Assembly (NCBI RefSeq): GCF_000166355.1
Contig: NC_014652.1
Span: 2,082,928 to 2,146,927 of the forward strand
DNA length: 64,000 nt
Direction: 5' to 3'
Origin: Caldicellulosiruptor hydrothermalis 108
Lineage (GTDB): Bacteria; Bacillota; Thermoanaerobacteria; Caldicellulosiruptorales; Caldicellulosiruptoraceae
Translations under genes and position numbers: made by a program
The notes under the pieces: model-generated
The model's database searches: none
What the model was told of the DNA's origin: nothing
The model's input: the letters and a program-made list of their open reading frames with translations, nothing else
Shown: positions 45,739-59,755 of the stretch, one piece after another
Layout: each line of letters begins with the position of its first letter
Position numbering within the stretch: the stretch's first letter is position 1

Positions 45739-45788
45739 AAAATACAAAAACTCCTACAGATGTTGCTCTTTTGCAGCATCTGTAGGAG
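45739..45788 (-). terminator. Riboswitch-controlled terminator of the fluC operon
   Basis: CTCCTACAGATG (45751-45762) pairs with CATCTGTAGGAG (45777-45788), followed on the minus strand by TTTTTGTATTTT. Its 5' arm contains the CTCCTAC end of the fluoride aptamer, so ligand binding would stop terminator formation. Confidence 0.93.
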
Positions 45789-45835
45789 TCATCAGCCCTC
45801 ATTGGCATTTGTACGGCGGACTCCATCGCCGTTAG
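45781..45835 (-). ncRNA. Fluoride riboswitch (crcB motif) aptamer
   Basis: On the minus strand it reads AACGGCGATGGAGTCCGCC, a loop, and GGGCTGATGACTCCTAC. It carries the crcB-motif hallmarks GGCGATGG, TCCGCC and TGATGACTCCTAC in the right order and spacing. It lies about 100 bases before two fluC genes. Confidence 0.95.
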
Positions 45836-45839
45836 CAAT

Positions 45840-52648: not shown

Positions 52649-53437
52649 TTAGCTTACAAAAAGCTTTTCAATTATCTTTTTTCTCATCGCCCTCTCTAAA
52701 TCCCAGTGGCGAAGAGGTTTTGTCTCTGTCACAATTCTGAGTGTATATTCTATCCAGTTTGTGTCCACAATACCCACAATCTGTGGTGGTGTTACAATGT
52801 CTTCTTTGAATTCTTCTTCAATCTCTTTGAACACCTCTTGGAGCTTCAAAGACACCTCATCAAAGTTCATCTTTGTGTTGAGCTTAACATCCACAATTGC
52901 CTTTGAGTTGTGTCTCGACCAGTTTGTAATGGCACCTATGGAACCATTTGGAATAATATGGATTGAGCCGTTGTAGTCCTGAATTTTAATTGTCTTTATT
53001 CCCATTTCTTTTACAGTACCACTTCTTCCATCGATGGTAACATAGTCACCGACAGACAGCTGATCTTCTATAATCAAAAAAAGACCTGCTATCACGTCGC
53101 GAATTAAACTCTGTGCACCAAAACCTATCGCAAGTCCACCTATCCCTGCAACAGCTAAGATTGTTTTGATTGAAACGTTAAAGTTTTCAAGAATGAGCAC
53201 AATCACTAAAAAGTATATAGAGTATTTTATAATACTTTTGAAAAGTGCTGCAAGAGTGTCTATCCTCTTTTGATTAATTGGAAATACAGAACTTCTCTGT
53301 TTTTTCTTCCATTTTTCCAGTATTTTGTTAGAAAACTTTAAAAACAAAAAACCAATAACCAAGATGACTATCGAATAAATTATTTTCCCACTATATTTCA
53401 AAATTATTTCAGACAGCTCCCCAATACTCAAATACAT
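52649..53437 (-). CDS. Small-conductance mechanosensitive channel (MscS family)
   Basis: This 262-residue membrane protein has about three helices and the MscS core: AVAGIGGLAIGFGAQSLIRDVIAGLFLIIEDQ (pore helix) followed by the beta domain QLSVGDYVTIDGRSGTVKEMGIKTIKI and IPNGSIGAITNWSR. It opens under membrane tension to release solutes on hypo-osmotic shock. The ATG at 53437 shares its A with the TGA stop of the amidotransferase gene, so the two are translationally coupled. Confidence 0.93.
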   Translation of the reverse strand: MYLSIGELSEIILKYSGKIIYSIVILVIGFLFLKFSNKILEKWKKKQRSSVFPINQKRIDTLAALFKSIIKYSIYFLVIVLILENFNVSIKTILAVAGIGGLAIGFGAQSLIRDVIAGLFLIIEDQLSVGDYVTIDGRSGTVKEMGIKTIKIQDYNGSIHIIPNGSIGAITNWSRHNSKAIVDVKLNTKMNFDEVSLKLQEVFKEIEEEFKEDIVTPPQIVGIVDTNWIEYTLRIVTETKPLRHWDLERAMRKKIIEKLFVS

Positions 53438-54120
53438 CACCCTTTCAAAAACCTCTCAAAAAGCCTTTTTTGAAGAAGATCATCCTTTACCATAAGCTCG
53501 GGATGCCACTGCACACCTACAAAAAAGCTTCTGTCTTTTTTTGAAATTGCCTCCACAATGCCATCTGTTGATACTGCCTCTATTTCAAACCCAGGTGCTA
53601 CCTCTTCTATTGCCTGATGGTGAAAAGAGTTTACCAGAATCTTTCGGCATCCAAAGATGCGAGTGAATAACCCTCCAACAACTTCTACAGTGTGATATCC
53701 ATACATACCATCAAGATTCTGGTAATGAGAGATGGAGGATTTTCTCTCTATGTCCTGTATCAAAGTCCCACCAAACGCAACATTCATAACCTGCACGCCC
53801 CTGCAGATTGCCAAAACTCTTCTGTCCATCTCATATGAAATTCTCATTGCTTCAAACTCTATTCTATCTCTCAAAAGATTGATTCTTCTTATTCCTACTT
53901 GAGGTTCTCTGCCATAAAATTTAGGGTGAACATCCTCACCTCCGCAAAAAAGAACACACTCACACATCTGTATGTACTCTCTTAAAAGCTCGGTTGATAA
54001 GACACTTATAGGAAAAATTATGGGTTTTGCATTTAACATTAAAAGTACTTCTATGTACTCATTCATAACATAAAGTTTTCTATTGTCTGCATCAAACCCG
54101 CCAAATATAAGAACTTTCAT
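53437..54120 (-). CDS. Class I glutamine amidotransferase-like peptidase C26
   Basis: This 227-residue protein of the PuuD/gamma-glutamyl-GABA hydrolase type hydrolyses gamma-glutamyl amides in the cytoplasm. It shows VLFCGGEDVHPKFYGREP, the nucleophile region RVLAICRGVQVMNVAFGGTL with its Cys, VNSFHHQAIEEVAPGFE and VGVQWHPELM with the catalytic His. ATG at 54120 is chosen: AAGG precedes it by eight bases and it lies 14 bases after the ANTAR stop. A start at 54159 would overlap that gene by 25 bases. It is coupled to mscS. The substrate, a polyamine or another gamma-glutamyl compound, is not certain. Confidence 0.86.
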   Translation of the reverse strand: MKVLIFGGFDADNRKLYVMNEYIEVLLMLNAKPIIFPISVLSTELLREYIQMCECVLFCGGEDVHPKFYGREPQVGIRRINLLRDRIEFEAMRISYEMDRRVLAICRGVQVMNVAFGGTLIQDIERKSSISHYQNLDGMYGYHTVEVVGGLFTRIFGCRKILVNSFHHQAIEEVAPGFEIEAVSTDGIVEAISKKDRSFFVGVQWHPELMVKDDLLQKRLFERFLKG

Positions 54121-54134
54121 TTGACTTGCCTTAT

Positions 54135-54722
54135 TCACTTTGAGTTCTTTAATTTCCATTCTATGATTCTCTTTGCCACTTCTTTAATAGGCATCTGGTG
54201 GTCCATACTGAGCTTTTGAAGCTTTTTCATAGCACTTTCCTCATCAAGCTTTAGCTCCTTCATCAAAATCCCTTTTGCCCTTTCAACAAGCTTTCTTGTT
54301 TCCAAATCATCCTGAAGCTTTCTTATTTGCTCTTCTAACTTTCTTAATCTCATCCAATTTTTTACAATAGTCTCAACAAAAGATATGAATGCCCATTTAT
54401 TAAATGGACTGTACAAGAAAATGTTGAACTCATCATCTTCTAAGATTACACTTTCTATATTAGACCTTTGTGCCTGGTTTGCCAAGATGACAACAGGACA
54501 TATTCTATCATTTTTTAGAATATCTATCATCTCCACCATACTGCCAACACTAAATCCATACTCCATAACAACAATATCTGGTTTTAAAACCCTTATCTTT
54601 CTTAGGCAATCTGCAAAGTCCGAAGCAGTGTCAGCAATGGTATAGCCATTTTCAATAAGGGTACTTTTTACAACAGAAAATAATTTTTGGTTCTTTATAG
54701 CCAAAATGACCTTGAACATCTC
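54135..54722 (-). CDS. ANTAR-domain regulator with a degenerate receiver
   Basis: This roughly 195-residue protein has a receiver-like domain, a coiled coil (RKLEEQIRKLQDDLETRKLVERAKGILMKE) and an ANTAR RNA-binding domain (KLDEESAMKKLQKLSMDHQMPIKEVAKRIIEW). ANTAR proteins bind paired hairpins to prevent termination. The receiver keeps the fold (DIVVMEYGFSVGSM), but the phospho-acceptor Asp is Glu, the N-terminal acidic pair is absent (VILAIKNQ) and the K-P-F motif reads YSPFN. It should therefore not be phosphorylated in the normal way. ATG at 54722 gives the receiver start; a GTG at 54764 is possible. No ANTAR hairpin pair was found nearby. Confidence 0.85.
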   Translation of the reverse strand, partial: EMFKVILAIKNQKLFSVVKSTLIENGYTIADTASDFADCLRKIRVLKPDIVVMEYGFSVGSMVEMIDILKNDRICPVVILANQAQRSNIESVILEDDEFNIFLYSPFNKWAFISFVETIVKNWMRLRKLEEQIRKLQDDLETRKLVERAKGILMKELKLDEESAMKKLQKLSMDHQMPIKEVAKRIIEWKLKNSK

Positions 54723-54780
54723 TATTCTTTGCTCCCTATCAAGCTTATTTAATAATTTTAACACACTCCTTTTTCTTTTT

Positions 54781-56268
54781 CTATAAAAACATCACTAAAC
54801 CTTTTTGGGCTAAATTAATCAGTTTTTCCACTATAGTAGTATCGAACTGGCTGCCGGCACACCTTTTCATCTCGCTTAAAGCTGTCTCCTTATCAAAAGC
54901 TTTTCTATAGGGTCTATCAGAAGTCATTGCATCATAAGCATCGGCAACAGCTACAATCTTTGCAAGAAGGTCTATTTCTTCATCTTTCAATCCAAACGGA
55001 TAACCTCTGCCATCCACCCTTTCATGGTGCTGAAGCACAACCTTTTTGATTCTGTCCGTAAACTCTAAATCTTTTAAAATGTTGTAACCTATTAAAGGAT
55101 GTTTTTGTATTTCCTCATACTCATGAGCTTCTAAAGAACCTTTCTTGTTCAGTATATCCTCTTTCACACCAATCTTTCCTATATCATGAAGCAAACACGC
55201 AACCTTTAGAACATCTTTTTCTTCCTCTGAAAGCGAAAGCTCATCGGCAATCTTTAAAGCAATGCTTTGCACTCTTTCGCAGTGTCCTTTTGTATACACA
55301 TCCTTGTACTCAATTGCTTTGGACAAGCATAAGATTGTTTCATAGAAGAACTTTTCAATTTCTTGATTTTTCTTCTCCAGTTCTGCCTTTGATTTATTTA
55401 ACTCCTCAATTGTCTCTTTCAGTTTTTCGTTCATGTAAGTGCTTTTTTCATACAAATCTTCTATTTCTGATTTCTGTTTTTTGAGATTTGAATAATAAAT
55501 GGCATTTTTTATGGCTATAGTAATAAAATTGCACAGGCTGATATAATATTCAACATCTTCGCTTGAAGTGCTTTTGCATTCAATTCCATAAAAACAAATA
55601 CCTTCACATCTCTCTTCTGAAACAATCGGAATAGCTACTTTTACCAAGTTATTATTTTCTATCTTGTAAGCAATATTGATATCCTCTCTTGCTCTGCTCA
55701 GAAGCAGCTGTTCATGTACATCTTTTTGCCCAAACTCGCTCAAGATTTTGAATCTTTTATAATCACTATCATGATAAATGCTCATGCGAAAAAATCTTAA
55801 ACTTCCATGGCTATACTCACCTATAACCTCAACTATATTTTCTACATTCGAAAGACTAATAATCTTAGTTGAGAGCTCAAAAAAATTTTTAAACCATTCA
55901 TTTTTTTCTCTTAAGTCCCTTTCTGTCTCAATTAATCTTTTTACAATATTTGTCATCTCTTTGTTCAGTCGGATACTATCAATATAATTTTTTTCAATAC
56001 TATCTTTTTCCTCTTTTAGCTTTTTAATTATGACCTTTTGTTTTTTCTCAAACACTCTATATCTTTTCAATATACTGCCATATCTGAGAATATAAAAGAC
56101 TGTAAAAAATACCATCGCAAAGAACAGAGTTACAATTTGAAGATATTCAATGATAGGTTTTTTAACATGAAAAAAAATTTCGGCAACCTGAACTGCCAGT
56201 GGAAAACATATCAAGAAGAAGAGAAAAAACTCAAAAATCCTCATCCATAAATTCTTTTGTAGTTTCAA
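54781..56268 (-). CDS. Membrane HD-GYP phosphodiesterase with GAF domain
   Basis: This 495-residue protein degrades cyclic dinucleotides or relays a signal. Two membrane helices (about 9-29 and 40-60) are followed by a coiled coil (about 70-115), a GAF-like domain (about 120-260), a second coiled coil and a complete HD-GYP domain (about 320-495). Its key residues are GHCERVQ, CLLHDIGKIGV (HD), HPLIGYNIL, HHERVDGRGYP (GYP) and ADAYDAMTSDRPYR. All catalytic metal ligands are present. It is first in the operon HD-GYP, ANTAR, amidotransferase, mscS, suggesting osmotic or nitrogen signalling. Confidence 0.92.
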   Translation of the reverse strand: MKLQKNLWMRIFEFFLFFLICFPLAVQVAEIFFHVKKPIIEYLQIVTLFFAMVFFTVFYILRYGSILKRYRVFEKKQKVIIKKLKEEKDSIEKNYIDSIRLNKEMTNIVKRLIETERDLREKNEWFKNFFELSTKIISLSNVENIVEVIGEYSHGSLRFFRMSIYHDSDYKRFKILSEFGQKDVHEQLLLSRAREDINIAYKIENNNLVKVAIPIVSEERCEGICFYGIECKSTSSEDVEYYISLCNFITIAIKNAIYYSNLKKQKSEIEDLYEKSTYMNEKLKETIEELNKSKAELEKKNQEIEKFFYETILCLSKAIEYKDVYTKGHCERVQSIALKIADELSLSEEEKDVLKVACLLHDIGKIGVKEDILNKKGSLEAHEYEEIQKHPLIGYNILKDLEFTDRIKKVVLQHHERVDGRGYPFGLKDEEIDLLAKIVAVADAYDAMTSDRPYRKAFDKETALSEMKRCAGSQFDTTIVEKLINLAQKGLVMFL

Positions 56269-59612: not shown

Positions 59613-59755
59613 GGTAAAAGTCCATCCTTCGGGGCGGGGTGAAATTCCCCACTGGCGGTAAAAGCCCGCGAGCAAAAGCTGTCCTACTTGCAGCTTTTGC
59701 AGAACCGGTGAAATTCCGGTGCCAACGGTTACAGTCCGGATGGGAGAAGGAGTGG
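59613..59755 (+). ncRNA. FMN riboswitch (RFN element)
   Basis: The conserved blocks are in order: TTCGGGGCGGGGTGAAATTC, CACTGGCGGT, AAGCCCGCGAGC, a variable hairpin (AAAAGCTG...CAGCTTTT), CCGGTGAAATTCCGG, CCAACGG and CAGTCCGGATGGGAGAAGG. The terminator at 59801-59845 gives a transcription-off switch ahead of ribD. Confidence 0.97.

Follow-up and report, generated by a model that had tools for sequence, protein, structure and literature searches.

A sole ANTAR regulator with a fully altered receiver as a candidate nitrogen antiterminator in Caldicellulosiruptor

The described systems closest to the gene considered here are EutV, AmiR, NasT, the glnA-linked REC-ANTAR proteins of Clostridia and Asp-less pseudo-receivers with Glu. 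EutV, of the EutV-EutW pair (PDB 6wsh/6ww6), is phosphorylated and reads dual hairpins with an A1/G4 hexaloop that overlaps a terminator; its RNA-contacting residues include the aromatic Tyr164, which stacks on loop base G4 (PMC8934654). Taken singly, the two hairpins are bound by EutV about equally well, yet antitermination needs both (PMC8934654), and in the eut system the P1 hairpin and the linker length matter, loss of P1 having harmed induction. Published ANTAR targets are likewise dual hairpins (PMC3369931, PMC8164766). AmiR, of the AmiR-AmiC pair (PDB 1qo0), joins a pseudo-receiver to an ANTAR domain and operates independently of phosphorylation, while NasT, of the NasS-NasT pair, is an RNA-binding protein released from a partner, in its case NasS in nitrate/nitrite sensing (PMC3795266). 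In pseudo-receivers lacking the phospho-site Asp, replacement of D by Glu and of T by Ala is common, and the DD2 position is commonly Asn (PMC12632262). Finally, glnA-linked REC-ANTAR proteins of Clostridia are represented by nitR of C. acetobutylicum and by Clo1313_2030 (PMC4676874). Our literature search found nothing joining ANTAR with glnA leaders or with Thermoanaerobacter hexaloops, and a search for Caldicellulosiruptor together with the ANTAR domain gave one match, which concerned C. thermocellum; in a further search, none of the matches listed dealt with ANTAR domains by title. The main text of PMC3369931 does not name the genus Caldicellulosiruptor, and that of PMC12632262 mentions neither ANTAR nor AmiR.

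The window, a stretch of 64,000 nucleotides of the 2.77 Mb genome of Caldicellulosiruptor hydrothermalis 108 (G000), contains a gene for a putative REC-ANTAR antiterminator at 54135..54719 on the minus strand, identified from its open reading frame and its Pfam match. Read from the ATG at 54719, the start used by most relatives in the genus and the origin of all residue numbers given below, the gene encodes 194 aa, comprising a pseudo-receiver (residues ~1-118) followed by a coiled coil and the ANTAR domain (~119-194). An alternative GTG start at 54764 would yield a product of 209 aa, with the same stop at 54135. The initial annotation, which gave no strand, placed the end of the gene at 54722, one codon ahead of the ATG. 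Its assignment of the product to the ANTAR regulators is borne out by the ANTAR profile (PF03861), which scored 69.9 bits against a curated cut-off of 27.3; the Response_reg profile scored 20 bits on the same protein, below its cut-off of 30.2. A genome search found this to be the sole ANTAR gene of G000. All 11 relatives searched in the genus possess an ortholog and have one ANTAR match each above the cut-off, with a further, sub-threshold match in G002.

Directly upstream of the gene lies that of an HD-domain (HD-GYP-type) protein (54781..56268, minus strand), and downstream, overlapping the ANTAR gene by 25 nt, that of a Peptidase_C26/GATase protein (53437..54159, minus strand), followed in the conserved run by an MscS-type channel gene (52649..53440, minus strand); all three were assigned from Pfam matches and conserved order. 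The order HD-GYP-type, ANTAR, C26, MscS, proS is kept in the window, in 11/11 relatives of the genus and in the sister genus G012, so that the neighbours named by the initial annotation, an HD-GYP protein upstream and a glutamine amidotransferase downstream, are present as claimed and are conserved. As conserved neighbours, the HD-GYP-type and C26 genes are candidate inputs to the regulator. Unlike AmiR, the protein has no AmiC-like ligand-binding gene adjoining its own, where HD-GYP-type, C26, MscS and proS stand instead, and its putative targets are other than those of AmiR. The glnA gene lies ~79 kb away in G000 and is not adjacent; in many other Clostridia the ANTAR gene adjoins glnA. Elsewhere in the window, Rfam models detected an FMN riboswitch at 59621-59755 (plus strand), ahead of apparent riboflavin genes, and a fluoride riboswitch at 45776-45839 (minus strand).

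Alignment showed that all five active-site positions of the receiver are replaced: the acidic DD pair by I8-K9 (codons 54693..54698, minus strand, as for the codons that follow), the phospho-acceptor Asp by E53 (54561..54563), the conserved Thr/Ser by A80 (54480..54482) and the conserved Lys by S104 (54408..54410). The absence of the N-terminal acidic residues, the Glu at the phospho-acceptor site and the change of Lys to Ser had each been read correctly at the outset. Close relatives could have retained an Asp at the aligned position; instead, Glu53 is present in 12/12 genomes of the genus (11 distinct proteins, that of G008 being identical to that of G005) and in the sister genus G012. Identical proteins and frames longer than 260 aa were dropped before residues were counted. 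Among 79 other ANTAR rows, the phospho-site is Asp in 67 and another residue in 12, with Glu in none. The remaining positions vary little in the family. DD2 is occupied by Lys or Arg throughout (the pair reads IR instead of IK in G005, G008 and G011), position 80 is Ala in all rows, and position 104 is Ser across the genus except for Asn in G001, with Lys in G012. The Asp-to-Glu and Thr-to-Ala changes are those common in Asp-less pseudo-receivers; the Lys/Arg at DD2 differs from the Asn common there. On these residues, phosphorylation at the usual Asp is excluded and control of the protein would be phosphorylation-independent. The usual phosphate-operated switch appears to have been replaced, so that another signal would have to control the protein.

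The altered receiver does not have the appearance of a decaying domain. Among pairs of genomes in the genus, the median dN/dS was 0.067 for the receiver and 0.05 for the ANTAR domain (30/66 pairs, the other 36/66 lying outside the usable dS range), and 73/118 receiver positions are invariant among the 12 genomes. Together with the genus-wide retention of Glu53, the low receiver dN/dS indicates that the altered receiver looks selected rather than decayed. The predicted structure has a mean pLDDT of 88.5 and a single long helix spanning residues 108-156. In a Foldseek search, the best full-length solved folds were EutV (TM 0.73, the top match), AmiR (0.71 and 0.65 for two chains) and Rv1626 (0.56). 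The predicted model hints at, without proving, an extended, active-like form.

A tree of 91 ANTAR rows placed these changes in context. A group of 48 rows split off at 100/99, and 45 of its rows retain both acidic residues. The window's family falls outside that group, within a 14-row set (97/80) that includes two glnA-linked rows; both of these sit on long branches, and the tree software flags the joining of L038 with the family as possibly spurious. The full acidic pair is kept in 0/26 glnA-linked ANTARs versus 45/53 of the non-linked rows outside the family, indicating that weak or lost phosphorylation chemistry is common in glnA-linked ANTARs, although most of the 26 retain the phospho-site Asp. 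These glnA-linked rows are presumably NitR's kin. The window's protein resembles them in its REC-ANTAR architecture, its glnA leader hairpin, its tentative tree position beside two of them and its incomplete acidic pair (incomplete in 26/26 of them), and differs in its location within an HD-GYP/C26 run, its Glu phospho-site, its Met at position 164 and its additional, putative amt-nif targets. By this comparison, the window's family is an extreme case among ANTARs of the glnA-linked type with respect to loss of phosphorylation. The sister genus also carries a second, long-branched REC-ANTAR (L112, G012:C2) with both the Asp and the Tyr.

The ANTAR domain had initially been described as looking intact, which holds in part. 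The equivalents of EutV residues R142, K143, K149, E160 and M172 are kept, that of E160 being invariant in the ANTAR alignment, and Arg147, Gln168, Asp173, Gln175 and Pro177 are each also found among other ANTARs. In contrast, M164 (codon 54228..54230, minus strand) takes the place of the aromatic residue with which EutV stacks on loop base G4. Position 164 is Met in all 13 rows of the family, the window being counted twice, whereas it is Tyr in 65, Phe in 11 and His in 3 of the 79 other ANTAR rows. Since Met164 is found in the whole family, we regard its ANTAR domain as a variant, not as a textbook member.

Candidate RNA targets were sought in leaders of nitrogen genes. The glnA leader carries the hairpin AGGAC-AAAGGC-GTCCT in 12/12 genomes of the genus, with GTTCT as the 3' arm in G005 and G008. 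Its hexaloop has A1 and G4, and its 5' portion is common to a strong terminator. The leader of C. hydrothermalis itself folds as the terminator (-28.1 kcal/mol, z -7.0), and folds into the hexaloop hairpin when ended before the 3' arm of the terminator, an arrangement similar to the A1/G4 hexaloop overlapping a terminator in the EutV system. A second leader, combining the 7-bp hairpin GAAAGGC-AAAGGC-GCCTTTC with a terminator, lies in G000 ahead of amt, glnB, nifH and two P-II (nifI) genes. A 7-bp AAAGGC hairpin with terminator precedes this amt in 9/9 genomes that have it, all 9 of which also have nifH. Although without this amt and the additional P-II genes, G003, G007 and G009 retain the ANTAR gene. 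In G000 two ORFs on the opposite strand that read as transposase-like (G000:C1:2208910-2210340 and 2211036-2212385; L220) split the nif cluster, standing after the second nifI-like P-II gene and before the nif-like gene that comes next. By reading, a nifE-like gene is followed by a nifB-like gene in this genome with no nifN between them (L361, 13881-15972); Caldicellulosiruptor has been described as lacking nifN (PMC8209448).

Several searches bear on the specificity of these two leaders. A core-pattern search of G000 found 109 matches, of which 100 were listed; among the matches listed, 42 were stem-compatible and only the glnA and amt leaders overlapped a terminator. A stricter pattern with a fixed stem matched only the glnA leader (on both strands) and missed the amt leader because the amt stem differs. 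Two look-alikes were dropped for want of a terminator, one in a coding region (G000:C1:456830) and one recurring in a long open frame (G000:C1:2178465). A hairpin model was built from 16 hairpins outside the genus. With 150 of 587-804 first-look candidates scored per genome, it ranked the glnA leader first in 10/12 genomes and, in the remaining 2, the amt leader; both leaders were recovered in all nine amt-nif genomes. The shortness of the motif left the best matches with weak E-values (0.08-0.31), and in G005 the glnA hairpin was outscored by several of the other sites among the 150 scored. Compensatory changes were found in 12 cells altered on both sides versus 2.9 in shuffles; since pairing was how the hairpins had been detected, this count is biased towards the stem. 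A1 and G4 occur in 19/19 distinct hairpins, which were partly selected for those two bases. The same 14-nt hairpin core, GGACAAAGGCGTCC, occurs with a terminator-like tract on an Omnitrophota contig (L100:4334-4351).

The glnA hairpin also tracks the presence of an ANTAR gene outside the genus. Among 13 relatives that lack ANTAR, 10 of which have a Gln-synt_C match, the hairpin was found in 0/11 loci scanned; three weaker Gln-synt_C matches, in G041 and G019, lay outside that scan. Of six ANTAR-bearing relatives scanned, G012, G039, G049 and G059 have the hairpin, G039 with no obvious terminator. No A1/G4 hairpin was found at glnA in G044, where one locus offered just 237 bp of upstream sequence, and G058, excluded from the count, showed a hairpin with loop ACAGAG alone and no terminator in sight.

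As for paired hexaloop hairpins near nitrogen genes, hairpins do stand ahead of glnA and amt-nif, but they are single. Scanning the nitrogen loci for dual hairpins gave no match at strict settings; relaxed settings gave weak matches, the most conspicuous being the lone glnA hairpin with its terminator. A second A1/G4 hairpin (P1) within 75 nt upstream was found in 0/21 leaders of the genus (12 glnA and 9 amt), and in 2/43 leaders scanned overall (L124, L308). In the glnA leaders of G005, G006, G008, G011 and G012, the called -10 box ends 9-10 nt before the stem. For the other eight glnA leaders of the genus our script called no promoter at the stem because the -35 box is poorer; by eye, the window's own genome has a TATAAT equally close to its glnA stem. 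A -10 box so near the stem leaves little space for P1. All 9 amt leaders carry a perfect TTGACA-17-TATAAT whose end lies 28 nt upstream of the stem. EutV, by comparison, is phosphorylated, has Tyr164 and reads dual hairpins.

Further leaders emerged from a first covariance model, in which hairpins of the genus were included: two more terminator leaders appeared among its 8 matches in G000, both of them missed by the core pattern. One precedes a Peripla_BP_6 gene that is followed by genes for aconitase and isocitrate dehydrogenase, the enzymes leading to 2-oxoglutarate. In 7/7 genomes in which the gene was located, its leader has a terminator and contains GGCAAAGG; the examined stretches of G008 and G011 lacked the gene. 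Folding predicts the hexaloop in 4/7, with a 7-bp stem in G000 and G010 and a 3-bp stem in G004 and G002. In G001, G005 and G006 (L348, L349, L351) folding predicts a different hairpin, and a reading of these three as 7-nt loops was dropped on that ground. This third leader is therefore less surely an ANTAR target. The other (G000:C1:489590-489607; L313, L360) has an A1/G4 hexaloop and a terminator ahead of MCP-like and PYC_OADA carboxylase genes; it was found in G000 only, and the gene was not located in the examined stretches of the other genomes. Across 296,518 bases of loci scanned with a 5-bp stem required, one doubtful match (L355) turned up beyond these leaders, and none in the window.

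Taken together, the lost active site, the conserved Glu, the sole ANTAR gene and the conserved hairpin/terminator leaders, all of them legible in the sequence, lead us to favor a reading in which the REC-ANTAR protein is the nitrogen-regulon antiterminator of the genus, its receiver serving as a docking module and its activity being inhibited by a partner or metabolite (probability roughly 0.6). We infer that the ANTAR domain binds the single A1/G4 hairpin in the glnA and amt-glnB-nif leader RNAs and perhaps also that in the leader of the binding-protein/aconitase/isocitrate-dehydrogenase operon. Since the 5' arm of the terminator includes the 5' stem and the loop of the hairpin, bound protein would block terminator formation, and the genes would be read through. 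The receiver would take no phosphoryl group and would act in dimerisation and docking. A signal of nitrogen excess, a partner protein or metabolite, would most likely inhibit a protein otherwise competent to bind RNA, following the logic of AmiR and NasT. The protein would resemble AmiR in combining a pseudo-receiver with an ANTAR domain, independence from phosphorylation and overall fold, and NasT in being an RNA-binding protein released from a partner, the nitrate/nitrite sensing and the NasS partner being peculiar to NasT. The odds of the antiterminator reading rest on the glnA and amt leaders; counting against it are the loss of the G4-stacking aromatic and the single hairpins, published targets being dual.

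The main competitor, less probable but to be taken seriously, holds that the antiterminator is constitutively active, E53 and K9 locking the receiver in an active-like state, with control exerted by the amount of protein or not at all. PhoB D10A/D53E, titled constitutively active, appeared at Foldseek rank 19; phospho-site D-to-E substitutions and CheY D13K have led to constitutive activity (PMC4671073), a precedent matched here by a basic DD2 in every row of the family; and Glu, which occupies the phospho-site of Asp-less receivers more often than any other residue, can be a partial phosphomimetic (PMC12632262). The T and K suggested in the latter source as holding the Glu phosphomimic are, however, Ala and Ser here, and EpsW was activated by neither D13K nor D58E (PMC4671073). 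Ammonium did not completely suppress the nitrogenase activity of Caldicellulosiruptor strains, and nifA is absent (PMC8209448), but a leaky nitrogenase can arise in other ways, and the strains studied there may differ from the genomes used here. We prefer partner control over constitutive activity by about two to one. A bolder version is rather doubtful: a receiver frozen by Glu53 and the Lys at DD2 would drive a one-hairpin regulon spanning ammonia assimilation, nitrogenase and 2-oxoglutarate, tied to c-di-GMP through the HD-GYP protein, and its ANTAR domain would read G4 despite lacking the aromatic residue.

A view that we consider improbable takes the leader hairpins for ordinary terminators or attenuators to which something else responds, the ANTAR protein having other targets or none. 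The loss of the ANTAR aromatic (Met164) and the distance of ~79 kb between the ANTAR gene and glnA would fit such a view, but the out-of-genus hairpin model ranks glnA or amt first in 12/12 genomes (150 candidates scored per genome), the glnA hairpin co-occurs with ANTAR across relatives, and A1 and G4 are found in all 19 distinct hairpins, albeit in part through selection. That the receiver is a vestige without a role, fused to a working ANTAR domain, is the least credible view, its sub-threshold Response_reg score and five replaced active-site residues being outweighed by purifying selection nearly equal to that on the ANTAR domain, by the invariant positions and by a confidently predicted fold.

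Partner-inhibited antitermination thus remains our preferred reading, and the locus as sequenced combines a glnA-type ANTAR, a fully altered receiver, an unusual Met on the RNA face and putative one-hairpin targets. The findings suggest that single-hairpin leaders in Clostridia would escape target searches that demand two. A 2025 review terms the switching of pseudo-receivers a mystery (PMC12632262), and transcriptional work has been called for on how Caldicellulosiruptor diazotrophs respond to ammonium (PMC8209448). Both questions could be tested compactly at this locus, which has a single ANTAR gene and two or three leaders and which varies naturally among genomes: position 104 is Lys or Ser, nif is present or absent, and the loop of the third leader is altered in some. 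If a receiver frozen by its Glu and Lys did prove to drive the regulon, it would explain ammonium-insensitive nitrogen fixation in a lineage that lacks nifA.
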